DNA of 59,940 nt from a virus, in IMG/VR virus record IMGVR_UViG_3300021962_000114, positions 1-59,940 of that record; one strand, given 5' to 3'. The translations under genes and the position numbers were made by a program. Positions 69-56,283 of this stretch are shown one piece after another; position 1 is the first letter of the stretch; each line of letters starts with the position of its first letter. A model generated the notes under the pieces. That model was not told the DNA's origin and did no database searches. It saw only the letters and a list, made by a program, of their open reading frames with translations.

Positions 69-944
69 TTACCAGTAACGACCTTTGCCTTTGTTGCCCA
101 GACTCTTGATTCTGTGGCTTCTGCAACTCCAATAGCCAGCCGTGGTTCTATCTTTCTTTTGGCTGCACTTGTGACGAGCAGCAAAGCTTTTACGACGGGC
201 TTTGCTACTAGCTCTACTTCTCATATTTGGATCGCCAAATGTTACTTTCTTGATGTTGCCACCCTTGCTTTTGACATACACAGCATACTTTTTTGGACCG
301 CCTGGAGTTCTGAATGGGCGATTCAAATGTACATTCTTGCCACGATGCTTGACTTCCATCATCAAGTCTTCTTCCTCCTCAATAGGAGCATCCAAATATA
401 CTTCTCTACCTTCGTAGATGGCTTTTTTACCCAAATCACTTTCAACCAGTTCTGCGTCTGGATCACACAATTCAATCTTGTTTTGGTGATACAATTCACG
501 AACTTCGTTGATCAATGCAAAATAAGCATCGCTGTAGGTTCTGAATACATTCTCTGTTAGCGACAACTTCTTGACCAAATGATATTCCAATTCCTTGCTG
601 ACTCTGACTTCACTAACCAACTTCATTTCACTCAAACCATCAGTATCATCTTCATTGACCGCACCATATTTTCTTGCAATGTCCATGGCTTGATCCAAAT
701 ATTGATTGGCCATGTCTAAATGATTTTGTCGCTTGGTGTCTTTGGTCATCTTGCTTTTCAATAGATGTGCTTTTTCCATCTTTCTCAAAGCAACATACTT
801 TTGGCGGTCCATCGCATTCGTGATTTGATCTTCGTACCCACCAGATTCTTTGACTGGCTCAAAACCCAGCTTTTCTAGTTCAGATGTGTTAGCAGCTTCA
901 ACTATACATTCTTTAATTAGATCTCTCAATTCGTTGGTGGTCAT
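69..944 (-). CDS. Conserved phage head-region protein with basic Cys-containing C-terminus
   Basis: 291 residues. The N-terminal two thirds are helical and acidic. From about residue 200 a region rich in Lys and Gly leads into a motif FGDPNMRSR followed by SFAARHKC...YWSC, which I remember from structural-gene neighbourhoods of T4-like aquatic phages, where it has no settled function. The paired Cys residues and surrounding His/Arg could bind metal or nucleic acid. The first residues (LRDLIKE, CIVE|A) contain L/I-x-E sites like those cut by T4-type prohead proteases. The gene follows the capsid gene, from which a strong terminator separates it, and has its own TATTTAT-type promoter 5 nt before the ATG. 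A head or vertex role is likely from position; the function is unknown. Confidence 0.8.
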   Translation of the reverse strand: MTTNELRDLIKECIVEAANTSELEKLGFEPVKESGGYEDQITNAMDRQKYVALRKMEKAHLLKSKMTKDTKRQNHLDMANQYLDQAMDIARKYGAVNEDDTDGLSEMKLVSEVRVSKELEYHLVKKLSLTENVFRTYSDAYFALINEVRELYHQNKIELCDPDAELVESDLGKKAIYEGREVYLDAPIEEEEDLMMEVKHRGKNVHLNRPFRTPGGPKKYAVYVKSKGGNIKKVTFGDPNMRSRASSKARRKSFAARHKCSQKKDRTTAGYWSCRSHRIKSLGNKGKGRYW

Positions 945-949
945 ATAGT

Positions 950-958
950 AATAAATAG
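950..958 (-). promoter_or_regulatory. TATTTAT-type promoter motif, 5 nt before ATG
   Basis: The coding strand reads CTATTTATT, then 5 nt, then the ATG at 944. It lies immediately downstream of the terminator that ends the capsid operon. If it acts as the -10 box of a gp55-type promoter, transcription would start at or next to the ATG. Confidence 0.55.
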
Positions 959-988
959 AAAAACCCCAGCCTTGCGACTGGGGTTTTT
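959..988 (-). terminator. Intrinsic terminator after the major capsid gene
   Basis: An 11-bp stem with CCCCAG/CTGGGG core and an 8-nt loop is flanked by T runs on both strands, so it could act in both directions. It sits 25 nt after the capsid gene stop and directly abuts the next promoter motif. Confidence 0.85.
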
Positions 989-1012
989 TGTTTAACTTAT
1001 GTCAACTACTGA

Positions 1013-2755: not shown

Positions 2756-2805
2756 AATATTTCCTATCTCTTTATCTGTTAGTTTGTTGGTTACTCGCAA
2801 ACAAA

Positions 2806-3924
2806 TTACTTCTTGATTCCTGCGAGTTTTTGGAATCGTGAAGTCATCACATCAGCTTGAGGTTCCACAATTGCGGAGTCAGGCTTTGTTGATGGTACTG
2901 GTTTGCTTGCCAAACCTTCGGTGATAGTCGAGACAGTTGCATTGGTAGAAGTCTTCTTCTTGGCAACCGATCCACCGGCATTAAATGATTCGGCCAAAAC
3001 GGTATATGCAAGCTTGATTTCACGCAATGTCTTGGTGAGATCAAACGTGCTGATGACCTTCAACTTTTGGTCTTCGGTCAAATTCTTGTTCTTGAACAGC
3101 TTGTTGGTGTACAACAGCTTTGCGTTCAAAATGTTGCTTTCTTCAAGAACAGTCTTGACATAGCGCAAACCTTCGTTTGCTTCTGCCAATTGCTTCTTGA
3201 GAGATTCGTTTTCTTCGCTCAAAGCAACAAGTGCTTCAGCGATTTCTTCTGGAGTGATGTCCATATCACCGCATTCTTCACAGTCTTCACCTTCGGATGG
3301 CGAAGGAACTTGACCTGGCACTGGAGCAACTGGTGCTGGTGCTGCGGCAACTGGAGCCACTGGTGCTGCTGGAGCAGCTACAGGAGCAGTAGGATCAACG
3401 GCAACTGGTGCTGCTGCGCCTTCTTCTTCAAGTTCAGCAAGCAATTCATCCAAGTTAATCTCGGCTTGCTCGTCAACCTTTTCCTTTTCGTCTTCTTCCT
3501 TCTCGCCCTTTTCTTCCTTCTCTTCGGCTACAACTGGTGCCGAACCGTCGGATTCAAGCTCTGCGAGAATTTCATCCAACTCTTCGCTGGTGATTTCAGT
3601 GCCCTCTTCCATGGTAGCATCAAATTCTTGCTTACCTGCTGGAGTGGTGTTTTTCTTAGCAGCAGTAGATGGTTGAACTGGATGTTGCTTAGAAGCTTCA
3701 TTACCATGTTCCTTACCAATGTTTGAAGATGCAAGCTTTTCTTCGATCTTGCCTTCTTCGTTACCTGCTTCGTCTTGTTGCTCTGCGTCTTCCTTGAGTT
3801 TGTCCGCAAACATTTCTTTCATGCTCTTGGCAAAGTTTTCCTCAAGGAAGGTTTTTGCGTTAGCAATTGCAGTATCACGTACTGCCTTTGCGTCAGCAAT
3901 GCTTTCTTTCAATAGATCGCTCAT
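2806..3924 (-). CDS. 22: Prohead core scaffolding protein (T4 gp22-like)
   Basis: Internal scaffold around which the shell assembles and which the prohead protease degrades. The 372 residues are very acidic, with a Pro/Ala/Val-rich low-complexity stretch at about 170-205 and two repeats of the form ELDEILAELE. The C-terminal third has the gp22-type segment (LLYTNKLFK, LTEDQKLKVI, TLREIKLAYTVLAES). An AGGAAAGG ribosome site lies about 10 nt before the ATG, unlike the leaderless-looking neighbours. Many L-x-E sites fit cleavage by the protease encoded further upstream. Its place directly before the capsid gene is the T4 order. The first residues (MSDLLKES) resemble the L-x-E-ending tags of other head proteins here. 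Confidence 0.9.
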   Translation of the reverse strand: MSDLLKESIADAKAVRDTAIANAKTFLEENFAKSMKEMFADKLKEDAEQQDEAGNEEGKIEEKLASSNIGKEHGNEASKQHPVQPSTAAKKNTTPAGKQEFDATMEEGTEITSEELDEILAELESDGSAPVVAEEKEEKGEKEEDEKEKVDEQAEINLDELLAELEEEGAAAPVAVDPTAPVAAPAAPVAPVAAAPAPVAPVPGQVPSPSEGEDCEECGDMDITPEEIAEALVALSEENESLKKQLAEANEGLRYVKTVLEESNILNAKLLYTNKLFKNKNLTEDQKLKVISTFDLTKTLREIKLAYTVLAESFNAGGSVAKKKTSTNATVSTITEGLASKPVPSTKPDSAIVEPQADVMTSRFQKLAGIKK

Positions 3925-4020
3925 ATTAAGTTATACCTTTCCTATTATTGTTGTGAAGTTATTGGAGAACTCCAAAGAAGATGTGTTTGCACTGACATCA
4001 AAGACGTTGATGTATTTGAT

Positions 4021-4030
4021 AATAAATATT
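4021..4030 (-). promoter_or_regulatory. Candidate late promoter for scaffold-capsid operon
   Basis: The minus strand reads AATATTTATT, close to the TATTTATA-like motif seen at other operon starts but about 96 nt before the scaffold ATG, which leaves a leader with a proper ribosome site. The same intergenic region also holds a TATAAATAG on the minus strand (4061-4069), which is the T4 late box in its usual orientation. Either could drive gp22-gp23. Confidence 0.35.
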
Positions 4031-4060
4031 GTATAAAATTCATAAATCACAATTTTTTTG

Positions 4061-4070
4061 CTATTTATAG
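4061..4070 (+). promoter_or_regulatory. TATTTATA promoter motif, 5 nt before plus-strand ATG
   Basis: CTATTTATAG on the plus strand precedes the ATG at 4075; counted from the end of TATTTATA the gap is 5 nt. No ribosome binding site fits between. Read on the other strand it is TATAAATAG, so it could also serve the divergent scaffold operon. Confidence 0.55.
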
Positions 4071-4074
4071 ATGT

Positions 4075-4671
4075 ATGCCAGCACAAAGCGAAAAACAAGC
4101 ACGATATTTCCGACTCGTCAGAGCGGTTCAAAAAGGAGATGTTCCTGCAAAGGACGTATCACCTGCACTGCGCAAAACAGCAAAAAGCATCAGTGCAAAA
4201 GCAGCAAAAGATTTCACCAAACTGAAAGAAATTCTTGCGCAATTGAGCGAAGAAGAATACAGCACCAGCAAAATGAAAGAAGTGGAGCCAGGCAAAACTT
4301 TTGATCAAGTGTTGGGAGAAAACGCTGGTCTACCATTCGACAAAAAAGAATTGTTGTCGTTTCAAGAAAAGCAAAATGGATTTGGTGGATTTGGTAAAGT
4401 AAACTTTGTACACAAAAAGAGCACCAACGAAATCAGTGCTGAACTCAACAGCAACGAAAGCAACAAAGTGTATGTGTTCAAAAAGTTGTCCAACAACAAA
4501 CACGAAGGTATGAGAAACTATGCTTGCTTTGTTGAGATGCGCAGCAGCAGCGATGAAAAACAACAACCAAAAATTGTATACACTCTCAGCACAATTTTTG
4601 ACGACAAAGACAGTGACAAAACCAAAGTATTGACAGACTTCATTGATAGAATCAACTCATATGGACTATAA
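4075..4671 (+). CDS. Small basic phage protein, DUF3008-like N-terminus
   Basis: 198 residues. The N-terminus (MPAQSEKQARYFRLVRAVQKGDV) resembles the short helix-turn found at the start of the small DUF3008-type phage proteins. The remainder has a Gly-rich FGGFGKVNF segment and a beta-rich C-terminal half with no recognisable enzyme motif. It is one of only three plus-strand genes in the window and is divergent from the scaffold gene. It overlaps the next gene by 11 nt, so the two are probably co-expressed. Function unknown. Confidence 0.75.
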   Translation: MPAQSEKQARYFRLVRAVQKGDVPAKDVSPALRKTAKSISAKAAKDFTKLKEILAQLSEEEYSTSKMKEVEPGKTFDQVLGENAGLPFDKKELLSFQEKQNGFGGFGKVNFVHKKSTNEISAELNSNESNKVYVFKKLSNNKHEGMRNYACFVEMRSSSDEKQQPKIVYTLSTIFDDKDSDKTKVLTDFIDRINSYGL

Positions 4672-5030: not shown

Positions 5031-5504
5031 TTATTGACCTGCTGAGTGAGGTTCTTGAGGAAAGTTTGGCCCCAAGCTTACAGGTGCACCATCAGTTTGT
5101 GTTTGATAAGCTTTTGGTGCTTCTTGAATAGGATCAGCAATTTCAAAATAGCGTTCCAAACGAACACCACATTCTTCATACAACATCTCTAGTTGTTGTT
5201 CAATTGCTTTGATCTTGTGTGCTTCTTCGTATAGCTTGGAAGCACACTTTTTGATTTCCTTCATGTCACGCTCAACCATCTTGGCTTCCATCCATTCACG
5301 GCACTCTTTCAAAGCATAACGCTCTGCCAAGTTGACAGCTTCCATAATCTTACCAGCAGTCTCATATACAGCTTCAGCCTTGAGTGACTTGCGATATTGA
5401 TTGTAAGCTTTGATGGTTTCACGCAGCTTTACCTTCTCCTCTTTGGTCAAAGGAGCATATGCTGTTTCGGTTGAATTTTCTACGAGATGTTTTAGCTTGA
5501 TCAT
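5031..5504 (-). CDS. Alpha-helical head-region protein with L-x-E N-terminal tag
   Basis: 157 residues, nearly all charged helix up to about residue 125, then a Pro/Gln-rich tail. The first ten residues (MIKLKHLVEN) match the pattern of short tags ending in L-x-E in the neighbouring head genes, as in T4 internal head proteins and prohead core proteins. It lies between the prohead protease and scaffold genes. T4 has small prohead core proteins (gp67, gp68) near this place, just upstream of gp21, but I see no sequence match to those and offer only a positional analogy. Confidence 0.75.
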   Translation of the reverse strand: MIKLKHLVENSTETAYAPLTKEEKVKLRETIKAYNQYRKSLKAEAVYETAGKIMEAVNLAERYALKECREWMEAKMVERDMKEIKKCASKLYEEAHKIKAIEQQLEMLYEECGVRLERYFEIADPIQEAPKAYQTQTDGAPVSLGPNFPQEPHSAGQ

Positions 5505-5508
5505 ATGC

Positions 5509-5517
5509 TATAAATAG
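5509..5517 (-). promoter_or_regulatory. TATTTATA promoter motif, 4 nt before ATG
   Basis: The coding strand reads CTATTTATA, GCAT, then the ATG at 5504. The motif fills most of the 22-nt gap after the protease gene stop, and there is no ribosome binding site. Confidence 0.55.
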
Positions 5518-6138: not shown

Positions 6139-7290
6139 TTACGCTGTTGGTGCTGGTTGTGCCGCAGGTTTTTCTTCTGGCTTTGGAGCAGGTTCATCGC
6201 TGGTTGCGGTGTTGCTTGGAGCAGTCGAAGATTGTTTGCTTGGATCAACCAATGCCTTAGATTTTGCAATCTGATATTGGTCCTTTGGTTTTACATCAGC
6301 AGGACCAAGAATTCTAATTTTGTAACCAGGCTTCACAAAGAACTTCGCAGCCTTTTGTTTGTTTTCTTCACGACCCAAAATAATGATCACATAGCGATCA
6401 TAATAATAATCAATGTTTACACCAGTCACGTTGATGGTGTAATCTGTTTCGGGTTGTTTGAATCCCTTACTTGCACGAACCACAATCTTTTTGTTTAGAA
6501 TGTGATCTTGAATTTCTTTTTGAAGCTTCAGCTTCAGATCCTCGGTGCTGTTTTTTAGCTGAGTATCAAATTGAGTAAAATCTGGTTGTAGATTGTAGGT
6601 TTGAACTTGTACACTTGGTTCGGCTTTTGGTGCAGCTTGTGCCGCAGGTTGAGCAGCTTGAGGTGCTGGTTGTGGTGCAGCAGGTGCTGGTTGAGGTGCA
6701 GCATCAGCTTCGTTCATGCGAAAACGACGAAATCGAATACCATTCAAACCTTCAACGATTTTGGAAATTTTTTTGAACTTCGTATCAACTTCTGTGAAAG
6801 GAAGTTGTCCTTGCTTATATCCAGCCAAACCTGGATCAAGCTCTGGATCGCCATGTTGTGGCAAGCCATTAGCATCCAACCAGCTATCCACTGGCTCAAT
6901 GTTTTGTGCTGGAGTTACATATGCTGGTTCGCTATACATTTGATTTTCCAACGACAAGTCTTTGTCTCTTGGAACATTCTTTGCCAACTTATAACCAAGC
7001 TGGGTAGCAGCACGAACGTTGCCTGGACCACGCTTGCTAAACGCAAACGGAGTCATCACACCACCTACAGCACTGGTTGTGGTAGCTTCATTTTTGTTGA
7101 GAATTTGATCCTTGACTTTTTTTTCAATGTTTGCTCGCAACTCGGGGCTGATTTTGTCTGCGTGAGCTTGAAGCCAAGAATAGTATTGCTCTTTGTCAAT
7201 ACGTGCAAGTTCGCTATCACGGTACATTTTAGCGTACTGTTTAACGATGTCTCTGAATGGATCGCCTGATTCTTTAAGAAGCTTTTTCAT
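6139..7290 (-). CDS. Head-region protein with Ala/Pro/Gln linker, unknown function
   Basis: 383 residues from the ATG at 7290 (an in-frame TTG lies two codons upstream). It begins MKKLLKES, an L-x-E tag like those of other head proteins here. Residues 10-195 form a mixed helical region, followed by a low-complexity Ala/Pro/Gln linker (about 198-228), then a compact alpha/beta domain (about 230-345) containing KKIVVRASKG and VIIILGREENKQKAAKFF, and a Pro/Ala/Lys tail. The start overlaps the preceding gene by 17 nt. Position between portal and protease suggests a prohead or internal head component. No enzyme motif recognised. Confidence 0.8.
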   Translation of the reverse strand: MKKLLKESGDPFRDIVKQYAKMYRDSELARIDKEQYYSWLQAHADKISPELRANIEKKVKDQILNKNEATTTSAVGGVMTPFAFSKRGPGNVRAATQLGYKLAKNVPRDKDLSLENQMYSEPAYVTPAQNIEPVDSWLDANGLPQHGDPELDPGLAGYKQGQLPFTEVDTKFKKISKIVEGLNGIRFRRFRMNEADAAPQPAPAAPQPAPQAAQPAAQAAPKAEPSVQVQTYNLQPDFTQFDTQLKNSTEDLKLKLQKEIQDHILNKKIVVRASKGFKQPETDYTINVTGVNIDYYYDRYVIIILGREENKQKAAKFFVKPGYKIRILGPADVKPKDQYQIAKSKALVDPSKQSSTAPSNTATSDEPAPKPEEKPAAQPAPTA

Positions 7291-8146
7291 TGGCAAGGCT
7301 ATTCAATTCTTCAATCAACTCATATGCACTAAGCAAACTGGTCAATTGATTTTCTTTGACTACACCATTGATGGTTTTGTTTGCAAGCTGCGCAATGGTT
7401 TCATTGAGCTTGATTTTAATAACATCACTCTTTACCAAAATAGAACGTTCTTTCAATGCGGTAGAAACACGCTTGTATTCCTTGTTTACAAATTCAGTAA
7501 ACTTGGTTGTATTGGATACGTTGGTAATGAATGCTTTGAGCAATTGCTTTTGAGAAGGAAGTAGAGATGCGTACTTCTTGTTGAAGTTTTCGATCAAGAA
7601 CTTGTAAGCGAGAAGCTTGACCTCAGCGGGTTGAGAACTATATACGTCAAGTGTAGGCTCCTCGGATTTCTTTTCTCGTATCAAACTTTCGATTACACAC
7701 TCTCTGGCTTCTACCAGTTCTTCCACATCAAATTTTTGCTCGGTGCTGGTTTGATTCTCAAACAGCTTGTAGACACTGGCATACAGCTTGTAGTTTGGAA
7801 TTTTGTTTTTGAGAAATTCGTCAATGTTGAATTGTGCTTTGATCTCTTTGATCAAGTTGTACTTTTCAGCATTTAGATCACGCTCGTTTAGTTTGGAACG
7901 AGCTTGAAGAACAACATTGATAATACGATCTGCGGTCTCGGCATTCTTAGATGATTGACTAACAACAAAATTGTAGAGTTGAAACTCTTTACCCAGTGAC
8001 GTGCCTTCATTAAAATACTTGAACATCAAGTTCTTGGTGAAAGATTCATCACGCCCAGCCAAAATATCTGCGGTGATTTGACGAGTAAGCAGCTCAAATA
8101 ATACTCCGCTGTTCTTAAACTTCGAATGTTTAGCTTTCTTACGCAT
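7274..8146 (-). CDS. Conserved phage protein next to portal gene
   Basis: 290 residues, almost entirely helical and rich in Lys, Asn and Leu. The opening KHSKFKNSGVLFELLTRQITADIL is a block that I recall from T4-like aquatic phages at the same place beside gp20 and gp21, where it is annotated only as a conserved phage protein. No catalytic motif is visible. It lies in the operon portal - this gene - 6139 gene - protease, so a role in prohead initiation or core assembly is a reasonable guess. It has a TATTTATA motif 14 nt upstream. Confidence 0.82.
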   Translation of the reverse strand: MRKKAKHSKFKNSGVLFELLTRQITADILAGRDESFTKNLMFKYFNEGTSLGKEFQLYNFVVSQSSKNAETADRIINVVLQARSKLNERDLNAEKYNLIKEIKAQFNIDEFLKNKIPNYKLYASVYKLFENQTSTEQKFDVEELVEARECVIESLIREKKSEEPTLDVYSSQPAEVKLLAYKFLIENFNKKYASLLPSQKQLLKAFITNVSNTTKFTEFVNKEYKRVSTALKERSILVKSDVIKIKLNETIAQLANKTINGVVKENQLTSLLSAYELIEELNSLANEKAS

Positions 8147-8160: not shown

Positions 8161-8169
8161 TATAAATAT
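8161..8169 (-). promoter_or_regulatory. TATTTATA promoter motif, 14 nt before ATG
   Basis: The coding strand reads ATATTTATA, then 14 nt (TTTAATAGAACTAT), then the ATG at 8146. The gap is longer than the 4-5 nt usual in this window and would leave a very short leader. Confidence 0.4.
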
Positions 8170-13477: not shown

Positions 13478-14242
13478 TTAGTCAATAAATGTTTTTTCAA
13501 ATGTGGATACACCCTTCAAATATGAACGCTGTGTTTCATCAAGTGCATCATCAGTAAATTGCCAGTTCCAAAATAGTTGATCTGGAGTTTGAAATCCAAA
13601 AAAGTCAAGAACACTCTTTTGCGTCTGAACTACATGCTTACCATTCCAGTTTTGACCAACCGCAATAAATCCAGCATCAATGTCTTTGACAATGTTGGAC
13701 TCACCCATTGTCGAATGTCTGTTTTCAATCCAAGTCAAACGTTCGATGAGTTTTTGATAATATCCATTAGCTTGGCCCCATCTCACACTCGCAAAAAACA
13801 GCACACAGTCACTTTCAAATAACTCTTTGCTGATCTTCCAAAGTTCGTCGCCTTTTTCATTTACACTTGCCCAGCAACGATGATAACCACTTGGGTTTTG
13901 TTCTTTGTTTTTCAACAATGCTTTTGCCGCACCACAATGATTGCCACCAAATTCTTTGTTGCTGCTCACATTACCTTCACATGGTACAATGTGCAATTTG
14001 GTAGTATCAATCAATGTTACCTTTTCCTTACCAAGTAATTCTTGAATTTTGATAGCAAGTTGACTGCTTTTTGGAACGTCTTCTTTGTGTTGCGACCAAC
14101 GATTGCTTGTGGTCAACAACAACACTTTGTTTTTGCCACGCAGATAGTCGATAGTTTTCTTGTATTTCTTCGCATACAAGTCCATATCTTGCTCACTGAT
14201 GGGTAACTTAGATTCTAACAATAAGTCGGTCAGACTGATCAT
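13478..14242 (-). CDS. Flavodoxin-fold NAD(P)H-dependent oxidoreductase-like protein
   Basis: 254 residues resembling the NADPH-dependent FMN reductase / iron-sulfur flavoprotein group. After a ~38-residue lead-in, KVLLLTTSNRW starts a Rossmann-like beta1-loop, followed by a helix, KVTLIDTTKL (beta2), CEGNVSSNKEFGGNHC (a loop with Cys where related proteins have Cys-rich segments), DCVLFFASVRWGQANGYYQKLIERL (beta3 and the conserved helix) and DAGFIAVGQNWNGKH (beta4). These match the order in flavodoxin-like reductases, though FMN contacts cannot be confirmed by eye. The first ten residues, MISLTDLLLE, look like a capsid-targeting tag. Redox flavoproteins are uncommon in the head module of phages. 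Its promoter motif lies 5 nt before the ATG. Confidence 0.72.
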   Translation of the reverse strand: MISLTDLLLESKLPISEQDMDLYAKKYKKTIDYLRGKNKVLLLTTSNRWSQHKEDVPKSSQLAIKIQELLGKEKVTLIDTTKLHIVPCEGNVSSNKEFGGNHCGAAKALLKNKEQNPSGYHRCWASVNEKGDELWKISKELFESDCVLFFASVRWGQANGYYQKLIERLTWIENRHSTMGESNIVKDIDAGFIAVGQNWNGKHVVQTQKSVLDFFGFQTPDQLFWNWQFTDDALDETQRSYLKGVSTFEKTFID

Positions 14243-14247: not shown

Positions 14248-14256
14248 TATAAATAG
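14248..14256 (-). promoter_or_regulatory. TATTTATA promoter motif, 5 nt before ATG
   Basis: The coding strand reads CTATTTATA, CGTAT, then the ATG at 14242. On the plus strand it reads TATAAATAG, so it might alternatively be a T4-type late box for the divergent plus-strand gene 66 nt away. Confidence 0.5.
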
Positions 14257-14307: not shown

Positions 14308-14316
14308 ATATTTATT
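14308..14316 (+). promoter_or_regulatory. TATTTAT-type promoter motif, 5 nt before ATG
   Basis: ATATTTATT, then GAAAT, then the ATG at 14322. It drives the isolated plus-strand adhesin gene and has the same motif-to-ATG spacing as on the minus strand, which supports reading the motif on the coding strand. Confidence 0.5.
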
Positions 14317-14321: not shown

Positions 14322-16286
14322 ATGAGATTAGTTGGACGCAACAAAAAAGGTCAAAAAATATTGATTACGGTTCCCGATTGGGATCAATACTTGCATGAAC
14401 AAACAACTGTCAATGCAGCCGCAGCACACCAACTAACTATTGCTCAAGCTGTGGGTCTTGGTGGTGGAGATGGCACTGGAAGTGATCCAGGCACAGATCC
14501 TACTCCAACACCAAGTCCTACACCATATGCTAGTTCAACTCCAACACCAAGTGTAACTCCTTCTGTCACAAAAACTCCTAGTGTTACACCTAGCATCAGT
14601 GTGAGCGCAACACCAAGTAGCACAGCAACGCCTAGCGTAACATCTACTCCAAGCAACTCTATAACTCCTAGTGTGTCTGTAACCCCTAGCTTGACAGCAA
14701 CACCTAGCATCAGTGTATCTGTCACACCAAGTTTGACCACAACACCAAGTGAAACGGTAACACCTACTCCGACTGCCACGGAAACTCCTACGCCAACTGC
14801 TACACCTGCTCCTGGATCATGCTATACTTATACACTAGTCAGTTTGCCTTATAATTTCCCAACTGCTGGAAATTCTATTATGAACAATGCGGCAGGAGTT
14901 ACTTCTGGAAGTGTTGATATCAACAATCTTACAACATCTGGTAGAGGATTTTATTTCAACAATATTGATGATGGTGCGGTTGATAGATCTGCTTACTACT
15001 CGACATTTGTTGGTCAAAATGTTACAATTACATTTACTCAAGGTAGTAATACAGCAATATATACTGGTGATACTACATCATTCAAATCATGGACTTCGGG
15101 TGGAACATCTGGATTTGTATTTGGAACAGGTATAGGAGTTCCAGGTGGTAGTGGTCCAAGTGGCACAGCTACATTGGTGCAAGCATCACCATCTGTATTT
15201 ACAATAGGATTGCCAGTTTGTGTAGGTATAGTAGCAACTCCGATCCCAACTCCAACACCAACGGCTACGGTAACACCTAGCATAACTGTTACACCAAGCT
15301 TAACCGCAACACCTAGCTTGACTGCTACTCCAAGCTTGACACCAACTCCAAGTGAAACAGCAACACCTAGCGTAACTCCAAGTGAAACAGCAACTCCTAG
15401 TGTGACTCCAAGTATTAGTGTAAGTGCAACACCTAGCCTAACACCAACACGTACTATAACACCTACACCTAGCTTGACTGCTACGCCTAGTATAACGCCT
15501 AGCTTGACTGCTACTCCGAGCGTAACACCAAGCTTGGCAGCACCAATTAATCCAAACGATCCTTCGTTGCAAATTTGGTTGAACGCAACCAATAGCACAA
15601 ACTACAGCCCAAGCAATCCAACCAATGAAACTTTCCTTGGTAGCTGGATCGACTCTGGATTGAGTAACCCTCACGATGCAAACACAACCGGTAATACTGG
15701 TGTCAAACCAAGATATCGTACCAATATTCAAAACGGTTTGCCAGCAGTATACTTTGACGGTAACAATGATTTGTTTACGGTCAATCCTTGGACTGCATTC
15801 CAAGCTATTCAAAAGTATACTTACTTCATTGTGATGAAGACCAATGCTACTGCAACTGATCAAATTGCTACAATTATGAAAACAAGCAGTGCCGAAGTCA
15901 AAGGCTTGTATTTGGCAAATATTGGCTCGCAATGGCAAATCGGTGGTGCTGGTGGTATTGCAAATGCTCCAGCAACAGTGGATACCAACTTCCACATCTT
16001 TACAACATATTTTGACGGAACTTTGACAGATGCCGACGTGAACGTTCAAAACGCATTGCGATTGAACATGAGAATTGACGGTGCTGCTCAAACATTGACA
16101 TTCTCAGCTAACGTTGGTAGCATAACCAATGCAAGTACCACTTACTTGTATATCGGTACCGATACATCAGGTAACTTTGACTTGGATGGATATATTGGTG
16201 AAATTGTCATCTATAACAAGTTGCTGACACTATCTGAAATTCAAAACGTTGAAGCCTACCTCAAGACCAAGTGGGCAACCCCATAA
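14322..16286 (+). CDS. Adhesin/fibre protein with two Thr-Pro-Ser stalks and lectin-like C-terminal domain
   Basis: 654 residues. A short N-terminal segment (1-48, MRLVGRNKKGQKILITVPDWDQYL) is followed by a Gly/Asp linker, a first TPS-repeat stalk (about 56-163), a beta-rich domain (about 165-300), a second TPS stalk (about 305-406) and a C-terminal domain (about 407-654). The last has the layout of a concanavalin A/LamG-like lectin fold: LQIWLNATN, LPAVYFDGNND, FIVMKTN and YIGEIVIYNKLLTLSEIQNVEAYL, the typical end of this family. The stalks are mucin-like and should be extended and open to O-glycosylation. It is likely displayed on the virion for binding cells or glycans. It stands alone on the plus strand between sheath and head genes, with its own promoter motif and terminator, like a moron. 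Confidence 0.85.
   Translation: MRLVGRNKKGQKILITVPDWDQYLHEQTTVNAAAAHQLTIAQAVGLGGGDGTGSDPGTDPTPTPSPTPYASSTPTPSVTPSVTKTPSVTPSISVSATPSSTATPSVTSTPSNSITPSVSVTPSLTATPSISVSVTPSLTTTPSETVTPTPTATETPTPTATPAPGSCYTYTLVSLPYNFPTAGNSIMNNAAGVTSGSVDINNLTTSGRGFYFNNIDDGAVDRSAYYSTFVGQNVTITFTQGSNTAIYTGDTTSFKSWTSGGTSGFVFGTGIGVPGGSGPSGTATLVQASPSVFTIGLPVCVGIVATPIPTPTPTATVTPSITVTPSLTATPSLTATPSLTPTPSETATPSVTPSETATPSVTPSISVSATPSLTPTRTITPTPSLTATPSITPSLTATPSVTPSLAAPINPNDPSLQIWLNATNSTNYSPSNPTNETFLGSWIDSGLSNPHDANTTGNTGVKPRYRTNIQNGLPAVYFDGNNDLFTVNPWTAFQAIQKYTYFIVMKTNATATDQIATIMKTSSAEVKGLYLANIGSQWQIGGAGGIANAPATVDTNFHIFTTYFDGTLTDADVNVQNALRLNMRIDGAAQTLTFSANVGSITNASTTYLYIGTDTSGNFDLDGYIGEIVIYNKLLTLSEIQNVEAYLKTKWATP
14490..14812 (+). 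repeat. Degenerate TPS-coding repeat, stalk 1
   Basis: Short direct repeats encoding T-P-S-[VL/I]-[TS]-x units. The codons vary (acaccaagt, actcctagt and so on), so the repetition is stronger in protein than in DNA. Confidence 0.85.
15238..15540 (+). repeat. Degenerate TPS-coding repeat, stalk 2
   Basis: Same kind of unit as stalk 1. It contains ACTCCTAGTGTGACTCC (15393-15409), which recurs exactly but inverted at 36826-36842 inside the stalk of a minus-strand fibre gene. Confidence 0.85.
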
Positions 16287-16396: not shown

Positions 16397-19300
16397 TTAA
16401 GCACTGAAACTTGCACCAGTTGGCAAAATGTTGAAGTCCAACATAATGAATTCTGCTGTGCGAGTTGGTTGAATATAGATTTGACCATACAGAATGTTAC
16501 GATCAATCAAGTCTGGAGTGTTGTTCTCAGCATCCATCTTGACTTGGTATGCATAGATACCATTGCGTTGTTGTACGCTTTCAAGATATGGATTGACGAT
16601 TGCCAAGAAGCGGTTGCGAGTTGCTGCAACGTTTTGTTCGAAAACAAGGTAGTTGCTGCTGCTTGCGATAAACTTCTTGAGGTTGATCAACAGACGGCGA
16701 ACATTGACACGATCCAGTGCGCTTGGGTTGATTTGCAGAGTCTTTTGACCCCACACCACAATGCCTTGACCTGGGAATGCTGCGATTGGGTTGACACGGT
16801 TCTCATAAAGAACGTCACGCTCTTGGTGAGTCAAGCGATCCAAGACTTGGACTGCTTGTGGAATACCACCACGATTCAAACCTGCTGGAGCATACCATTC
16901 TGCTGCTGCGTTGTCGTTTGCAGCGTAAACTGCTGGCAACACCACAGAAGGTGGAACTGGAATGATCTTGTTCAAGTTTGTGTCAAGGATCTTGACCCAT
17001 GGATAGTAGGTTGCAACATAGTTGCTGTCGATTGTTGCTACGCTGTTGATTGCAGCGTCAATCAAACCTACGCTTTGGTTGCTTGCTGGGAACACCACGT
17101 TATCCATGATGTAGAAGCAATCGCCACGGGTTTCACACATGGTGATGGTCAAGTTGGTAACATAGCTGTGTTGTTCACAGAAGATACCAGGCAACACGAT
17201 CAAGTTGATATCCCATTCATCGGCGTTGCCGAGGGCTGCGATACATTGCTTGTAAGCGATGCTACCAGGACTCTTGATTGTGGTACAATCCAAACCTTGT
17301 GTGTTACCAGCAGTGATGTCAGATCCAACGTTGATTGGAATTGCTGGCCATTGACCCTCAAATCCACCTTGGAATCCAACCACGAACTTACGCAAACGAA
17401 CATAGATTGGCTCGTTTACTGGATCGTAGATGCTTGGAATACTACCACTCAATTGAGGAGGCAGAATCGAACCAGTGCTTGCTGCTACGCCTTGAGCATA
17501 GTAAGATGCATCTGCGTAGCCCCAGACCTTGGCTTCAAGATCAAAGTCGATGTTGTCACCGTTTTGATCGTTGCCGCCGTAGTATGGAAGTGGCTTGAAC
17601 CAGTTTGCAGTGTCGATTGCAACACCCACACCAAACGACGAGGTTGGGTAGAGGTATGCGAGTTCTTCGCTTGCTTCGGCTGGATCACCAAACACAGTAC
17701 CAGATGGATACTTACCAGGTGCTAGACCATAGATACTTGCCTTGCTGTAGCGAACTGCTGGCAACAAGTTACCAAGAGTTCCATCCACTGGGGTCGAGTA
17801 TGCTTCAAATCCGTAAGGCACTACGCTTACTGGATATGGAAGATCGGTCATTTCAATACGAATATACTTACTCAAGTTGACGTAAGTACCGTATTCTACA
17901 ATCTTACCTGCGAAGGTAATGTATGCGTAGCGATCACCAATACGACGTGCTACGAAGTTTGCGCTATCTGGGTTGAGGTTCAAGTTTTGGAAGATTTCCA
18001 AATACTTTGGACGCTTGTCAGTATCGCTGTATGCACGAACTGCAAGAGTGAAGCTACCCCATTCGCTGCCAGGAACTGTACCAGACAACTTGACGTTGCT
18101 GATTTCGATCTTGTACTTGCGATTTGCCAAGGTACCATCGCTCAAGGTGTGAACCTTGAACAACTTGAACTTGGTTGGGTTTGCAGTTTCGGTTGCACTT
18201 CCCTTGAATGGAGCAATTGCTTGCGAATAGATCCAAGGAGTCTTGGCGTTGGTGATAGCGAATTGTGAATCGCCAGTGTTTGGATCATATGAGTATTGAT
18301 CCACAAACTTCATCGATTCTCCTACGCTGAAACCAGAGCTTGGTGCGGTAGCAACTTGGATTCTCCAACCACCACCTTCATCACCACTGCGAGTCTTTTC
18401 AGCCAAGAAGCGTTTGATGCTGTCTTCAAACAACACATAGTTGTATGCAGCTTCAATCTTTTGACCTTGAACTTGTTTTGCTGGGTTACCAACAGTTGGG
18501 TCCATACCAAACACTTCTTTGATATAGTTATTTGCATTCTCTTCAAGAGAGAAGTCATAGTAACCATAAGTACCAGAAGAGTTGTTTCCGTTTTCATCGG
18601 TGAAGTTGTAACGAAGAGCCAATTGATATTGGTTTTCGTTTGGATTGACTTGACCCTTGTAAGGATATACAGAGCTTGTCAATTGTGCTACAACTGAATC
18701 AACAAATCCATTGACTGTGTAGTTGCTGTCGAATTGGGTAGATGCATTTTGGGTATTTGCCAAAACTGCAAGCACCATATTCTTACGAGAATCTGGATTT
18801 GGGTTACATGGATCAGATCCACCCGAACCAGTTGCAATAAACGATCCATTGAATGGACCATACTTACCACTTACGATACCAATGAAGCGCAATGCTGCTC
18901 CGCAAGTTGCGGCACTACGAACTGTTGCAAAGCTTGCGCTATGCACAACCAAATCACCAGTTGCATCAAATGTATCCTTGTCGTAATCAAGATCAATTTG
19001 ACCTGTGTTTGTACCCGTGTTCAATACCGAAGAACTCAACAACCAATTAGTTTCTGAGCTTTCGTTGATTGCGGTTGAGATTTGAGTTTCCTCAGTGGTT
19101 TGTGTACCTTGTGCGCTTGAGGTCAGATAGAACCAACCAGAAGCATCGTTAGGTAGTGAAACACCACTAAACTTACGAATCAATCTCTTAGGAGTAGATA
19201 CAACACCAAGGCTTACTTGCTTGCCGCCATACAATTGGCTACCACTCAATGAACCAGTTCCGGCATATTTTGCAGGATAGTTACTGGTCAATTTAGCAGC

Positions 19301-20432: not shown

Positions 20433-20441
20433 TATAAATAT
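20433..20441 (-). promoter_or_regulatory. Candidate promoter for tail sheath gene
   Basis: The minus strand reads ATATTTATA 52 nt before the sheath ATG. A second element, TATAAATAG in the canonical T4 late orientation, lies at 20465-20473. The sheath gene thus keeps a leader with a ribosome site, unlike the close-spaced promoters. The remainder of the 110-nt gap shows nothing else. Confidence 0.35.
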
Positions 20442-20490
20442 GCTTCAAAAAGTTGAACCTCTAACTATTTATATGATCTTTCATTTTTTT

Positions 20491-25670: not shown

Positions 25671-25679
25671 AATAAATAG
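25671..25679 (-). promoter_or_regulatory. TATTTAT-type promoter motif with ribosome site downstream
   Basis: The coding strand reads CTATTTATT 20 nt before the ATG at 25650, with AAGGAAC in the short leader. This is an instance where the motif is followed by a true leader. Confidence 0.5.
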
Positions 25680-28250: not shown

Positions 28251-28259
28251 TATAAATAT
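28251..28259 (-). promoter_or_regulatory. TATTTATA promoter motif, 4 nt before ATG
   Basis: The coding strand reads ATATTTATA, GGAA, then the ATG at 28246. The GGAA spacer is too close to the ATG for a normal ribosome site. Confidence 0.5.
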
Positions 28260-36054: not shown

Positions 36055-37799
36055 AGATTAGAAATTAATGTATCAACTGTTCCTCCCACTGTCGAAGACA
36101 AATCACCGCCGCAAGGCGCACATGGGCTAACCTCACCAGATGACATCCACACACGATAAGGATCTGTCAGTGTACCAGAGCCACAAACCGGACTATAATC
36201 TCCGGTTGGATAAATTTGTGCCAAAAGGTTGCCAAACGATAGATTGTATGTGTGTGCTACATTTGGAGTACAACATCCGTCCACCGGTTCAGTCTGAAGA
36301 TGAGTTGCTGTAACCGTATATGTATTTGAATCGGTTGGTGAAAAACTATCCGTAAAATATCCGGAGGCAATTTTATTACCAGCACATCTCAATTTTTTTG
36401 CAGTAATTTCATCTCCAGTTGGAGACGTAAAACTTGTGTTGTTACATGCTGTATATACAAATACTCCACTTGTATTGCTGTCACCAGCACACGATGCGTT
36501 CACAGTCACAGTGCTATTACATTTCTGCGCCGGAGTCGGAACCGTTGTATAACAATCACATCCACCTGGTTTAGGATCTGGACATGCTGTTTTATTTGGT
36601 GGACTGCTTGGAGCAGGATATACAACAAAGTATACCACACCTGGTATAGGAGGACTGCTACTTGGAGTAGGCGTTGGGCTAGGGTCTGGTATTGGAGAAT
36701 TGCTTGGTGATGGTGCTGGAGAATTGCTTGGCGATGCCGCAGGCGAATTACTTGGTGATGGGGCGGGAGAATTACTTGGAGTTGCAAGAGGTGTTTGTGT
36801 CACGCTTGGAGTCACGGTCTCGCTCGGAGTCACACTAGGAGTAGCTGACACAGATGCATCAGGAGTACTGCTTGGAGTAGCACTAACGCTAGGGGTCGCA
36901 GTGGTACTAGGCGTTTTAGTAATACTTGGAGTTACTGTTGGTGTAGGCGACACTGAAGATGCTGGCGTACTACTTACACTAGGTGTTGGCGTTGGTGTGA
37001 TAGTCCTAGTAGGAGTCAGCGTAACGCTAGGAGTAATTGTGACACTAGGAGTAGGCGTCGGAGTTGGTGTAGGCGTTGGTGCCGGAGGAATATCACAACA
37101 AGGAGCTTCATAGGTTGGGTTTGAAAGATACGCACCCAAACCACAAATATTTACTGGATAAGTCAAATCATCCGAGTTTGCAACCAAAGGATATTTATTG
37201 ACAAAATAAGATCCAGACAGTTTCAAATTGTAGTTTCCATCATCAACGATGTCAGCAACCACATCACCGCTTTGATTGCTAATTACCACGGTGTTGGGTC
37301 TAATTTTATCACCTGTTTGGCTGATGCTCAATTGCAACAATGAAAACTCATTGGTCAAATGCAAAGATGCTTTGCTGGTATCATACTCATCAAAACCAAA
37401 AATGTTGTAGGCATTATTGTAGTTATTGTAGTACATGTTGAAGACAGTATTGTAAACCTGTCTTTGATATGTACCGTCCAAATTCATTGGATTGGATTCT
37501 TGACTCCAACCCGCACTTCCGCTTGGATAAAAAACTGAACTAGATGGAACGTATTTTCCAATTTCAAAATCAATCACATTTTCAAACTGCGATATTGCCA
37601 AGTAACCGCTAACATCCTCTGATGGAGAACAGCTACCAGATACATTGTCGTTGCACTGTGTAGTGTCTGCCGTCAATGGAAAAATGTCGTCACCGTCATT
37701 AGCAGCGATCAGATCATTCAATACACTGTTGACCGTTTGTGGCTTTGCAATCGTAAACGGCGTTATAATGATGTCTTGATTTTTGAAAAATTTGATCAT
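36051..37799 (-). CDS. Tail fibre-like protein with Thr-Pro-Ser stalk
   Basis: 582 residues from the ATG at 37799. An N-terminal domain (1-~235) ends in a conserved-looking Cys-rich EAPCCDIPPAPT. Then follows a mucin-like stalk (about 236-385) of TPTP, TPSV and SNSPAPSP units, and a C-terminal Cys-rich beta domain (about 390-582) with many CXXC-type pairs (CDCY, CCTP, CAPC) that probably form disulfides or bind metal. The stalk is the same sort as in the plus-strand adhesin 20 kb away. Likely a host-binding fibre. The next gene encodes a trypsin-fold protein. The start is set by a CTATTTATA motif 5 nt upstream; an ATG-less extension to 37832 is unlikely. Confidence 0.8.
   Translation of the reverse strand: MIKFFKNQDIIITPFTIAKPQTVNSVLNDLIAANDGDDIFPLTADTTQCNDNVSGSCSPSEDVSGYLAISQFENVIDFEIGKYVPSSSVFYPSGSAGWSQESNPMNLDGTYQRQVYNTVFNMYYNNYNNAYNIFGFDEYDTSKASLHLTNEFSLLQLSISQTGDKIRPNTVVISNQSGDVVADIVDDGNYNLKLSGSYFVNKYPLVANSDDLTYPVNICGLGAYLSNPTYEAPCCDIPPAPTPTPTPTPTPSVTITPSVTLTPTRTITPTPTPSVSSTPASSVSPTPTVTPSITKTPSTTATPSVSATPSSTPDASVSATPSVTPSETVTPSVTQTPLATPSNSPAPSPSNSPAASPSNSPAPSPSNSPIPDPSPTPTPSSSPPIPGVVYFVVYPAPSSPPNKTACPDPKPGGCDCYTTVPTPAQKCNSTVTVNASCAGDSNTSGVFVYTACNNTSFTSPTGDEITAKKLRCAGNKIASGYFTDSFSPTDSNTYTVTATHLQTEPVDGCCTPNVAHTYNLSFGNLLAQIYPTGDYSPVCGSGTLTDPYRVWMSSGEVSPCAPCGGDLSSTVGGTVDTLISNL
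36650..37090 (-). repeat. Degenerate TPS/SNSPAPSP-coding repeat, fibre stalk
   Basis: Short repeats encoding T-P-S-V-[TS] and S-N-S-P-A-P-S-P units on the minus strand. GGAGTCACACTAGGAGT at 36826-36842 is the exact reverse complement of 15393-15409. Confidence 0.85.
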
Positions 37800-37804: not shown

Positions 37805-37813
37805 TATAAATAG
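37805..37813 (-). promoter_or_regulatory. TATTTATA promoter motif, 5 nt before ATG
   Basis: The coding strand reads CTATTTATA, CTAGG, then the ATG at 37799. It lies directly downstream of a hairpin terminator. Confidence 0.5.
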
Positions 37814-51369: not shown

Positions 51370-51373
51370 AGGT

Positions 51374-53092: not shown

Positions 53093-53093
53093 G

Positions 53094-53432
53094 TTACTTT
53101 TTGGCGATAGAAATTACGTCGTCCATCAATTGCTTGCGTTCGTCTTCGCTCAGAATCATCGCACCACCCTCACCACTAGTTTCACCTTTTGCCACCAATT
53201 TTTGAACGATAGCTGCCAACTTAACCAGTTGTTCGTCATTCTTGACGCCAACATCATAATAGTCTTTAATTAGTGGCACAATAATAACAGCGTCGTTTAC
53301 CGTCTTGATCAGAGTACGCAGTTCAGAGATCAAAATATCGATTTGATCCTTTTTGCTTTCGGAGTTTTTTACTATGTCCTTACAAAGACTAGAGAAGTTC
53401 TTTCCCTTGTATATCTCAAAGTTTGTATCCAT
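53094..53432 (-). CDS. Conserved small phage protein
   Basis: 112 residues from the ATG at 53432; helical (SLCKDIVKNSESKKDQIDILISELRTLIKTV) with a central VIIVPLIKDYYDVGVKNDEQLVKLA motif and a Gly-rich stretch GETSGEGGAMILSEDE. I recall the block from T4-like aquatic phages beside the hub gene, without known function. It is the first gene of the hub-gp25-gp6 operon (2 nt from the hub gene). Start decided by the CTATTTATT motif 4 nt upstream; an in-frame extension to 53459 would run into the terminator hairpin. Confidence 0.78.
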   Translation of the reverse strand: MDTNFEIYKGKNFSSLCKDIVKNSESKKDQIDILISELRTLIKTVNDAVIIVPLIKDYYDVGVKNDEQLVKLAAIVQKLVAKGETSGEGGAMILSEDERKQLMDDVISIAKK

Positions 53433-53436
53433 ACTC

Positions 53437-53445
53437 AATAAATAG
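53437..53445 (-). promoter_or_regulatory. TATTTAT-type promoter motif, 4 nt before ATG
   Basis: The coding strand reads CTATTTATT, GAGT, then the ATG at 53432. It directly follows the terminator's T run, so promoter and terminator share the same few bases. It heads the baseplate operon. Confidence 0.55.
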
Positions 53446-53474
53446 AAAAAACCAACCATTTTGATGGTTGGTTT
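53446..53474 (-). terminator. Intrinsic terminator after the late sigma gene
   Basis: An 11-bp stem (AAACCAACCAT / ATGGTTGGTTT) with a 4-nt loop followed on the minus strand by TTT, then the promoter motif. It ends the operon containing gp55, 26 nt after its stop. Confidence 0.85.
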
Positions 53475-53499
53475 CGTTTTTATACAAAATATGTTGTGG

Positions 53500-54507
53500 T
53501 CAAATCACACCACGATTCATGTAGTTTTTGTTGATCTGCCCTTGATAGGCTTTCATTTTGTTCAAAACCTTGGTGATTTGCTGAGTCTTGCAATTACTGA
53601 TCTCTCGGATGTAAAGATACAGAGTTTTCTTGTTGAAGTTTTCAATACGCTCACAGCTACGAAACAACTCCAATACTGCATATGCAATATTTAGATCTTT
53701 GACCTTGGTGAAAACCTTGGTAATGTTTTTTTCCCAATAGTCGATCACCAACTTCATGAACTCTTGAGTTTGAACAGTACGATAGTGTGCATCTTCAGTT
53801 TGCAAACACACGCTGTCTTCGCTAGGAGTTTCACTGATATCTACATGCTGATTGAAACGCTTGTAGTTGTTATTGTTATGAAAAATCAAGTAGTTCTTGG
53901 CAACAATACTGAAATAGCTGAATGCTTTGCCTTTGCCAGCTTGAAACTTGTGTATGTTGGAAACAAGATGTGCCACAGTTTCACGCTGAATTTCCAACGG
54001 ACCAGAATCAAAGTACGTAAACTTGAAAGTGTTGTAGATATTTTCTACCAGCTTCTCGAAACTGAATTTGATACGCTCATTATAGATTGTATTGCGCACA
54101 TCGTTATCAGTCTCAGCGTTGTAGGCAATGATGGCTTCTTCTGTGGCTTTGCTGAAATAGATCTTTTCTTTTTTGTTTCTACCACGACGACGAACTGGCT
54201 TATCGCTTGCGTCCAGTGTTTCCACGTCAGATTCAACATCTGTGCTGGTAGTGGATGACACTGACTCAACATCACTATCTCGCTTGACAAAAACACCACT
54301 AGAAGAAATAGGCAAATCTTTCTTGATTTGCTTTGGTTGCTTCTTGACTACCTTCTTTTTCTTGGGAACCGTGACTTTGTAAACGACAGTAGTCTTGGGT
54401 TTTTTGTCTTTTTTCTTGGTGTTAGACAAAAGCTTTGCGGTTTTCTGCTTGGAAACCTTCTTACTTTTATCCTTGCTTTTCATCAGTGGTTCTGTTTGCG
54501 TCATCAT
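53500..54507 (-). CDS. 55: Late-transcription sigma factor (T4 gp55-like)
   Basis: Directs host RNA polymerase to phage late promoters. The C-terminal 225 residues match gp55: FSKATEEAIIAYNAETDNDVRNTIYNERIKFSFEKLVENIYNTFKF (about 113-158) is the region-2-like opening, and AYFSI/FSYFSIVAKNYLIFHNNN (about 193-215) the promoter -10 binding part. Unlike T4 gp55 (185 aa), it has a ~110-residue N-terminal extension rich in Lys, Val and Ser/Thr. The start at 54507 overlaps the upstream gene by 41 nt; starts at 54504 or 54483 are possible, and none has a good ribosome site. Its presence makes it likely that the TATTTATA-like motifs in this window are late promoters. Confidence 0.88.
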   Translation of the reverse strand: MMTQTEPLMKSKDKSKKVSKQKTAKLLSNTKKKDKKPKTTVVYKVTVPKKKKVVKKQPKQIKKDLPISSSGVFVKRDSDVESVSSTTSTDVESDVETLDASDKPVRRRGRNKKEKIYFSKATEEAIIAYNAETDNDVRNTIYNERIKFSFEKLVENIYNTFKFTYFDSGPLEIQRETVAHLVSNIHKFQAGKGKAFSYFSIVAKNYLIFHNNNNYKRFNQHVDISETPSEDSVCLQTEDAHYRTVQTQEFMKLVIDYWEKNITKVFTKVKDLNIAYAVLELFRSCERIENFNKKTLYLYIREISNCKTQQITKVLNKMKAYQGQINKNYMNRGVI

Positions 54508-54961: not shown

Positions 54962-55098
54962 TAGATTTCATCAGACTCATCATCTAGCTCAACAAATTCA
55001 TTAATAAACTCAACAGCGTCGTCGATTGCTGACCAGTCGTTATTTTCGTTTGCTTCTATAAGAATGCGACGTAGTTCTAAAAGTTCTTCGTTATTCAT
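54961..55098 (-). CDS. Small acidic 45-residue protein
   Basis: Reading the minus strand from the ATG at 55098 gives MNNEELLELRRILIEANENN...ELDDESDEI and a TAA at 54963-54961. The product is acidic and helical, like small phage regulators or inhibitors, and the stop overlaps the next start (TAATG), which is strong support for a real gene. No family recognised; the promoter-like CTATATATT lies upstream. Confidence 0.65.
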   Translation of the reverse strand: MNNEELLELRRILIEANENNDWSAIDDAVEFINEFVELDDESDEI

Positions 55099-55153
55099 GG
55101 GTTTCTAATACAGTAATATATAGTTCCCACGATTCAAAACGATATTTTTCTTT

Positions 55154-56269
55154 TCAAAAACTGAACAAACCACGAATACCAGCACCTTTTCCTCTGATCT
55201 TTCTGATGATGGTATTTTCGATTGGCTTCTCTACAACCCTTTCTACTTCTTTAACTACCTCAACTGGCTTTTCTACAGTTTTTTCAACTTCATGTATTAC
55301 GTCACGAACAACATCAACTGGCTTTTCAACCTCAACAATTTTTTCCACAACTCGTTCCACAGGCTTTTCCACCTCAACGATCTTTTCTACTACTGTTGTA
55401 TTGTTTGTTGATTGGTCAGCCTCGGTAGATGTTTGTTTCTTTAGCTCAATGTCTTTCTTTTTGTAGAGTTCATACTCTTTATCAGTTTCTACTTCACGAT
55501 AGTTTGCAGACATGTTGTATGCCAACAACAATACCACAGCCAATGGATCAAACACAGTAATCAGCACGATAATAAACCACTTTACAACGTGACGAATGTC
55601 TGTGTTGAATTCGTCTGCCACAAATTTGAATGTTGTAATATCTTTCTTTTGACTGTTTTCAATCTTGAGCTTGAAAATGTCATCATCGATCTTGCCAGAT
55701 TTATCACTAGCGTCTTTCAACTTAGCATTTTCAGTTTCAATTTGTTTGTTCAAATCACCGATTTGTTCGTTGATTTGATTTTGAATACTTTGTAGCTGAA
55801 TTGGATTGCGAGCAATCAATGCATTGGTCATTGTTTGGCTCAAACGATCTTCTTGAGAAGCACGTAGTGCCAACAACTTGTCGATGTTGGCTTTTACAGC
55901 ATCAAGCTTTTTGGATTCGGTAGTTTTTTGCATTTCCAAAGTGGCAATTTTGGTGTTTGCCAATTCACTTTCCAACGAACTCTTTTGAAATGCTGCTGTA
56001 AGATAGCCAAAAATACCCAAAGATGTAATACACATCAAAACCAACACAGCCGTCACCATATAAACCTTCATCAGTTTATTGGCAATATTCCAGTATCTAA
56101 ACAACCACGATGTTGTCACAAGCTTGCCCAATTCAAGCGAGCTTGCCATGATCATAGCAGCTATGATAGCACCAGAGAAAAGCAAACCAATACCATACAC
56201 ACTGAAGAAAGCGGCACAGCCAGCAATCAACATGGAGGTAAACATCACCAAATTTTTGAATTTGAACAT
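55154..56269 (-). CDS. Polytopic membrane protein with VEKP-repeat cytoplasmic tail
   Basis: 371 residues. Two adjacent membrane helices (about 5-48), a third (about 70-92), then a ~120-residue coiled coil (about 95-215), a fourth helix (about 229-252) and a tail of VEKP repeats (VEKIVEVEKPVERVVEKIVEVEKPV, about 285-350) ending in a basic KIRGKGAGIRG. The VYGIGLLFSGA...SLELGKLVT opening is widespread in large T4-like phages, where it remains without a name. It could be a membrane organiser or lysis-linked protein. The ATATTTATA promoter motif is 5 nt before the ATG, after a terminator. Confidence 0.82.
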   Translation of the reverse strand: MFKFKNLVMFTSMLIAGCAAFFSVYGIGLLFSGAIIAAMIMASSLELGKLVTTSWLFRYWNIANKLMKVYMVTAVLVLMCITSLGIFGYLTAAFQKSSLESELANTKIATLEMQKTTESKKLDAVKANIDKLLALRASQEDRLSQTMTNALIARNPIQLQSIQNQINEQIGDLNKQIETENAKLKDASDKSGKIDDDIFKLKIENSQKKDITTFKFVADEFNTDIRHVVKWFIIVLITVFDPLAVVLLLAYNMSANYREVETDKEYELYKKKDIELKKQTSTEADQSTNNTTVVEKIVEVEKPVERVVEKIVEVEKPVDVVRDVIHEVEKTVEKPVEVVKEVERVVEKPIENTIIRKIRGKGAGIRGLFSF

Positions 56270-56274
56270 ACTAA

Positions 56275-56283
56275 TATAAATAT
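56275..56283 (-). promoter_or_regulatory. TATTTATA promoter motif, 5 nt before ATG
   Basis: The coding strand reads ATATTTATA, TTAGT, then the ATG at 56269, just downstream of a terminator hairpin. Confidence 0.5.

Follow-up and report, generated by a model that had tools for sequence, protein, structure and literature searches.

What is the role of a short AT-rich box, TATTTAT, that lies a few nucleotides (nt) before the ATG of gene after gene in a T4-like phage? The question is raised by IMG/VR virus record IMGVR_UViG_3300021962_000114, a complete record of 59,940 nt that was analyzed whole (hereafter the window) and is perhaps a genome fragment. The phage is assigned to the far-T4 group by its major head protein, head protease, portal, terminase, sheath and Hsp20, which match PHROGs families. 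Ranked by portal protein identity, the named phages closest to it are Microcystis phage Mel-JY01 (55%), Flavobacterium phage immuto (51%) and Rhodothermus phage RM378 (32%), and because of these relatives a Bacteroidota host is likely. The reading preferred here, with a probability of roughly 70%, is that the box is the late promoter element of this clade, read by a phage gp55-type sigma factor and giving rise to many leaderless late mRNAs.

An original prediction, made from the letters of the window, had placed the box or a one-base variant 4-5 nt before the ATG of nine operon-leading genes (starts 944, 4075, 5504, 14242, 14322, 28246, 37799, 53432, and 56269). All nine carry the exact core TATTTAT(A/T) on the coding strand at that distance, and one-base variants are not needed; the preceding base, given earlier as C, A or G, is C in six cases and A in three, and never G. 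The boxes predicted 14 nt before 8146 and 20 nt before 25650 also lie where they were said to lie. Two further boxes extend the earlier list, one 96 nt before the gene in the gp22 position (3924), the other 52 nt ahead of the sheath gene (20380). Conservation was counted among orthologues with matching N-termini, of which 944 and 14322 have fewer than three; for the nine close boxes the fraction refers to a box kept 4-6 nt before the ATG.

950-957, minus strand: box TATTTATT, 5 nt before the ATG of gene 69-944; abuts the terminator 988-959.
4062-4069, plus strand: box TATTTATA, 5 nt before the ATG of gene 4075-4671; 31/31 orthologues.
5509-5516, minus strand: box TATTTATA, 4 nt before the ATG of gene 5031-5504; 30/33 orthologues.
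14248-14255, minus strand: box TATTTATA, 5 nt before the ATG of gene 13478-14242; only 6/20 orthologues.
14309-14316, plus strand: box TATTTATT, 5 nt before the ATG of gene 14322-16286, which is divergent from 14242; fewer than three comparable orthologues.
28251-28258, minus strand: box TATTTATA, 4 nt before the ATG of gene 25682-28246; 9/13 orthologues.
37805-37812, minus strand: box TATTTATA, 5 nt before the ATG of gene 36051-37799; 6/10 orthologues.
53437-53444, minus strand: box TATTTATT, 4 nt before the ATG of gene 53094-53432; 30/33 orthologues.
56275-56282, minus strand: box TATTTATA, 5 nt before the ATG of gene 55154-56269; 24/26 orthologues.
8161-8168, minus strand: box TATTTATA, 14 nt before the ATG of gene 7274-8146; expected to give a short leader; 32/32 orthologues have a box within 115 nt.
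25671-25678, minus strand: box TATTTATT, 20 nt before the ATG of gene 25162-25650; short leader expected; 12/12 orthologues.
4021-4028, minus strand: box TATTTATT, 96 nt upstream of gene 2806-3924 (gp22 position); long leader and AGGA site; box 94-104 nt upstream in 22/22 orthologues.
20433-20440, minus strand: box TATTTATA, 52 nt upstream of gene 16397-20380 (tail sheath); leader and GAAAGGA site; 11/11 orthologues.

Across the window TATTTAT occurs 26 times against 11.6 expected, a count reached by none of 100 shuffles, and its reverse complement ATAAATA shows no comparable peak. To see how far the pattern extends, relatives were fetched with four queries (portal, protease, the product of the gene at 25650, and the gp55-like protein described below). 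Together with the window, the 271 loci obtained gave 1401 distinct ATG starts from a simple caller that takes the longest open reading frame (ORF) and mis-starts some genes (in the window 53459 for 53432; at locus L001 producing a “gap 0”). With the gap defined as the number of nucleotides between the 7-mer TATTTAT and the ATG, 224 of the 1401 starts have a box at gap 4-6 (gap 4, 41; gap 5, 96; gap 6, 87), compared with 0-8 (mean 3.95) over 20 rounds of dinucleotide-shuffled upstream sequences. At the same gaps ATAAATA is found five times and TATAAAT three times. Among distinct boxes followed at gap 4-6 by a start codon that opens at least 60 codons, this codon is ATG in 240 cases, TTG in nine, GTG in one, and CTG in two. 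The profile of the 224 boxed starts holds no conserved -35-like motif, only AT-rich or terminator sequence. Among 629 starts (loci L001-L142) the base before the ATG is T in 76%, an unexplained bias that is not confined to boxed genes.

Where would transcription begin? In Flavobacterium johnsoniae transcription is reported to start 4-5 nt downstream of the -7 element, and the F. psychrophilum box extends from -12 to -5 (PMC6847099, PMC9723704). On this box-to-start distance, 8-bp boxes ending 3-5 nt before an ATG would put the transcription start (+1) at or next to its A, and the late mRNAs concerned are probably leaderless or nearly so. The closest competing account also takes the box for a promoter, with transcripts that start a few nucleotides earlier and carry 1-4 nt leaders. 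Gaps that range from 4 to 6 would suit it, as would the variation of a few nucleotides seen at bacterial start sites. The lower limit at gap 4 is, in contrast, sharp, since only three starts lie closer, and each of these has another ATG 6 nt from the box; such a limit fits a start at the A, and leaders of 1-4 nt are unlikely. The two accounts differ little for translation, because mRNAs with such leaders behave much like leaderless ones.

Position within operons bears on what kind of signal the box is. When starts are grouped by how far away the preceding same-strand gene lies, boxed ones make up 0/277 of those that overlap it, 37/422 at 1-20 nt, 62/262 at 21-60 nt, and 62/196 at more than 60 nt; 45/126 with a divergent neighbor and 18/118 of unknown class complete the set. 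Boxed genes lead operons. Within the window, the claim that operon-internal genes lack the box holds with one exception, 31855, where a box lies 8 nt before the ATG and within the upstream gene. At 68/224 boxed starts the end of a hairpin and T-run terminator is no more than 40 nt from the box, whereas the same arrangement is seen at 9/415 unboxed leading and 4/762 unboxed internal starts. In 28 cases the T-run directly abuts the box, giving the order terminator, TATTTAT, 4-6 nt, ATG. The transcript from upstream should then end before the box, leaving little room for another promoter, and with so little room between terminator and ATG, +1 should fall in the last few nucleotides before the ATG or at the ATG itself. 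Four genes of the window had been described as having a terminator directly before the box; it abuts at 944 and 53432, but lies about 14 nt upstream at 56269 and about 30 nt upstream at 37799. Three hairpins are located by the terminator scan as follows.

959-988, minus strand: terminator hairpin whose T-run abuts the 950-957 box.
53448-53475, minus strand: terminator hairpin whose T-run abuts the 53437-53444 box.
56297-56324, minus strand: terminator hairpin upstream of the 56275-56282 box.

The box could instead act in the RNA, as UAUUUAU, bound by the ribosome or a translational regulator and substituting for a Shine-Dalgarno (SD) site on leadered mRNAs. Its tight spacing to the ATG is what such an element would show, and orthologues of the boxed genes have no SD-like sites, except 1/20 for 14242, although it is the SD's own place that the box fills. 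Starts that overlap an upstream gene need translation too, yet none of the 277 is boxed, and where a terminator T-run abuts the box the upstream transcript would stop before reaching it. The distance also changes between phages. In immuto TATTTAT lies mostly 10-25 nt before the ATG (21 occurrences, shuffles 1.8), with four at gap 4-6; in Mel-JY01 it lies at 26-50 nt (17, shuffles 2.6), with none at 4-6; and upstream of the gp22-position gene it keeps its 94-104 nt. In RM378, 11 genes have TATTTAA exactly 6 nt before the ATG (against 0.1 in shuffles at gap 4-6), 13 further occurrences lie at 10-25 nt, and one RM378 box abuts a terminator. A ribosome signal is not expected to move in this way, which favors a promoter; an RNA element is improbable, and we infer that the box is very probably a promoter.

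SD-like sites (GAAAGGA or AGGAAAGG) are conserved at three minus-strand genes, in 20/22 orthologues at the gp22 position (3924), 11/11 at the sheath gene (20380), and 22/23 at Hsp20 (56824). Such conservation is odd if the hosts are, as is likely, Bacteroidota, whose ribosomes are described as hiding their anti-SD (PMC9976891). The gp22-position leader of about 90 nt (window 3925-4016, minus strand) contains inverted repeats, CATCAA...TTGATG and TTGGAG...CTCCAA, that are conserved in orthologues; folded as a single sequence it is only weakly better than shuffles (z -1.0).

The T4 late promoter is described as a lone 8-bp TATA box with no -35 element (PMC2988020). The box shares with it the lone 8-bp AT-rich form, the absence of a -35, the association with late genes and a candidate gp55-type sigma homologue in the phage (in T4 TATAAATA is served by gp55, gp33, and gp45). 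The two differ in sequence and in place. The original prediction had noted two changed bases, an incomplete description, for on the coding strand TATTTATA is the exact reverse complement of TATAAATA; and where the box lies 4-6 nt before the ATG, TATAAAT/ATAAATA in the late 50 kb of T4 lies mainly at 27-29 nt. This complementarity would suit a T4-type promoter on the opposite strand that fires away from the gene, but it is from the gene following TATTTAT that the fixed distance is kept, the coding strand shows no enrichment of ATAAATA at that place, and backward firing would run straight into the terminator, so that this alternative can be set aside as scarcely credible. The best reading is that these phages, whose hosts are probably Bacteroidota, use a variant form of the T4 late promoter; what stands at these genes is not TATAAATA, hence it is not the T4 late promoter proper. 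(A/C)TATTTAT(A/T) would serve as the lone -10-type element of the clade's late promoters, recognized by host RNA polymerase with a phage gp55-type sigma (53500-54507). At many operon-leading late genes the box is so close to the ATG that RNA synthesis would begin on the A of that codon or no more than one or two nucleotides away, producing leaderless mRNAs, while at others (gp22 position, sheath, 8146, and 25650) the box lies farther upstream and the mRNAs would be leadered.

Which protein would read the box? The original prediction held that gp55 is encoded in the window. A putative gp55-type gene is present, although the family model of T4 gp55 missed it and it was found through its immuto homologue.

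53500-54507, minus strand: gp55-like late sigma candidate of 335 amino acids, with a low-confidence N-terminus, a sigma region-2 fold at residues 119-221 and a C-terminal helical domain at 226-335.

The immuto protein matches this gene (E 1.2e-37, 35%) and 15 of the 17 other records searched, the exceptions being RM378 and T4. A profile of the family then finds an ORF in RM378 (17032-17826, E 1.3e-12), and against 59 kb of T4 its top match is gp55 (E 0.0027, next 0.2). T4 gp55 itself matches phrog_234, which has a weak match to the immuto protein (E 0.008); a PHROGs scan of the immuto sigma returned no gp55 family at E 0.1, and only unrelated weak matches came from PDB sequences searched by phmmer with the immuto sigma and by hmmsearch with its family. 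In the predicted structure residues 119-221 superimpose on sigmaE region 2 (4lup_C; Z 9.3, 2.6 Å over 92 residues); Foldseek alone is weak (best E 0.053), and T4 gp55 is absent among the structure matches listed. The C-terminal domain (window 53500-53832, minus strand), modeled alone, has sigma region 4 as its best match (Z 5.9, 3.4 Å, 68 residues), tied with the signal recognition particle M domain, and nothing below E 0.35 in Foldseek. Its resemblance to sigma region 4 is suggestive only of a possible natural fusion of late sigma functions. A review of T4 in 2010 asks why a fused gp55-gp33 sigma has not been found in nature (PMC2988020), and the modeled protein is a candidate, still unproven, for such a gp55-gp33-type fusion. 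As to a sliding-clamp-binding peptide at the C-terminus, the candidate ends in NKNYMNRGVI, which by eye is unlike the hydrophobic-acidic LDFLYE end of T4 gp55. It is rather likely that this candidate is the sigma that reads the box. The RM378 ORF (NC_004735.1) is Rm378p020, annotated “hypothetical protein.” Gene 25162-25650, also considered as gp55, was dropped, as neither families nor PDB sequences nor phages gave it a gp55 match.

Placement, directionality, conservation, the juxtaposition of terminators and the candidate gp55-type sigma in the window all support the late promoter of the original prediction, with +1 at or next to the ATG. Several observations weigh on the other side. The 1401 starts are mutually related, so their counts are not independent tests; the 28 abutting terminators belong to two orthologue groups only, those of 944 and 53432; and at 14242 the box is retained in just six of 20 orthologues. 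The sigma is joined to the box by inference, phrog_234 has no match in the window, and hhalign of the candidate's profile against T4 gp55, at low diversity, gave no match. The Bacteroidota host is deduced solely from the named relatives, and a scan of genome contigs found no relative. Leaderless mRNAs are also few in Flavobacterium, at 5.5% in F. psychrophilum (PMC6847099, PMC9723704), and if the hosts make so few, the phage pattern is not the host's.

Several known systems resemble this arrangement in part. Flavobacterium sigmaA promoters (TAnnTTTG, -12 to -5) have a box-to-start distance that would here put +1 at the A of the ATG, but TATTTATA does not fit TAnnTTTG and the host mRNAs are mostly leadered (PMC6847099, PMC9723704). 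Leaderless genes of Deinococcus-Thermus and Actinobacteria likewise lack an SD and have a -10-like motif some 10 bp before the start codon (PMC12340547, PMC3160421). A -10 motif adjoining the ORF is taken as a leaderless mark in genome analysis (PMC3160421) and, in Deinococcus, experiments are reported in which it initiates leaderless mRNAs (PMC12340547). Such genes belong to the host and depend on its main sigma, whereas the element considered here is a phage late box in the T4 lineage, known from sequence. The late promoters of phiKZ (TATG, start at G) also place the start site at an ATG-like sequence, but are read by a multisubunit phage RNA polymerase (PMC5312081), where the candidate here is a T4-type sigma. 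Late promoters of the form NATAAATA are described for S-PM2 and other cyanophages (PMC2984593), and the method used there is reported to have found none in pelagimyophages (PMC7029224). The titles and abstracts covered by a literature search contain no description of TATTTATA late promoters or of leaderless late mRNAs in Bacteroidota T4-like phages.

On the preferred reading, leaderless late mRNAs can be predicted gene by gene for a large group of uncultured aquatic phages and for the cultured RM378, and the late box of the T4 lineage would differ from one phage group to another, both in its bases and in where along the leader it lies. It would offer a cheap means of calling late promoters in such genomes and of correcting their start codons, and the treatment of leaderless mRNA by Bacteroidota ribosomes, with their hidden anti-SD, becomes testable. 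A broader proposal is more tentative, and on balance doubtful: a branch of the T4 lineage comprising Bacteroidota and Rhodothermota phages may have re-specified its late promoter, with a single-chain sigma (gp55-like region 2 plus a region-4-like domain) that recognizes TATTTAW and begins many late mRNAs with the AUG itself; much of the late program would then be leaderless in hosts whose ribosomes ignore SD sites. If true, such a sigma would also supply, from nature, the fused late sigma that the T4 review asked after as missing (PMC2988020).

Mel-JY01 (PP395634.1) has Microcystis elabens as its listed host, yet its portal groups it with Flavobacterium phages as closest named relatives. It carries a ribosomal protein S21 gene, the only PF01165 match among 18 records; related phages bearing bS21 are predicted to infect Bacteroidetes in an account that, in the portion available, does not mention promoters (PMC9723584). 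In a 303-kb relative contig 30/364 starts are boxed, 18/93 on the structural side, which is the first 100 kb, and 12/271 elsewhere, a late/early division that was set after viewing the bins. The host-type TAnnTTTG promoter is not enriched over its reverse complement in this contig. In the window, TATTTAT also occurs on the minus strand at 44751 and 48609, inside the upstream coding region and 75 and 69 nt ahead of genes 44675 and 48539, respectively. For each gene 24/26 orthologues retain a box within 115 nt, which may reflect an internal promoter or codon conservation. CTATTTATA at 20465-20473 (plus strand) lies in the gap upstream of the sheath gene and faces no clear gene. Outside the structural side of the 303-kb contig, at 95-280 kb, TTGACA is found upstream of 48/259 starts (shuffles 12.8, reverse complement 16) and is perhaps an early promoter element.

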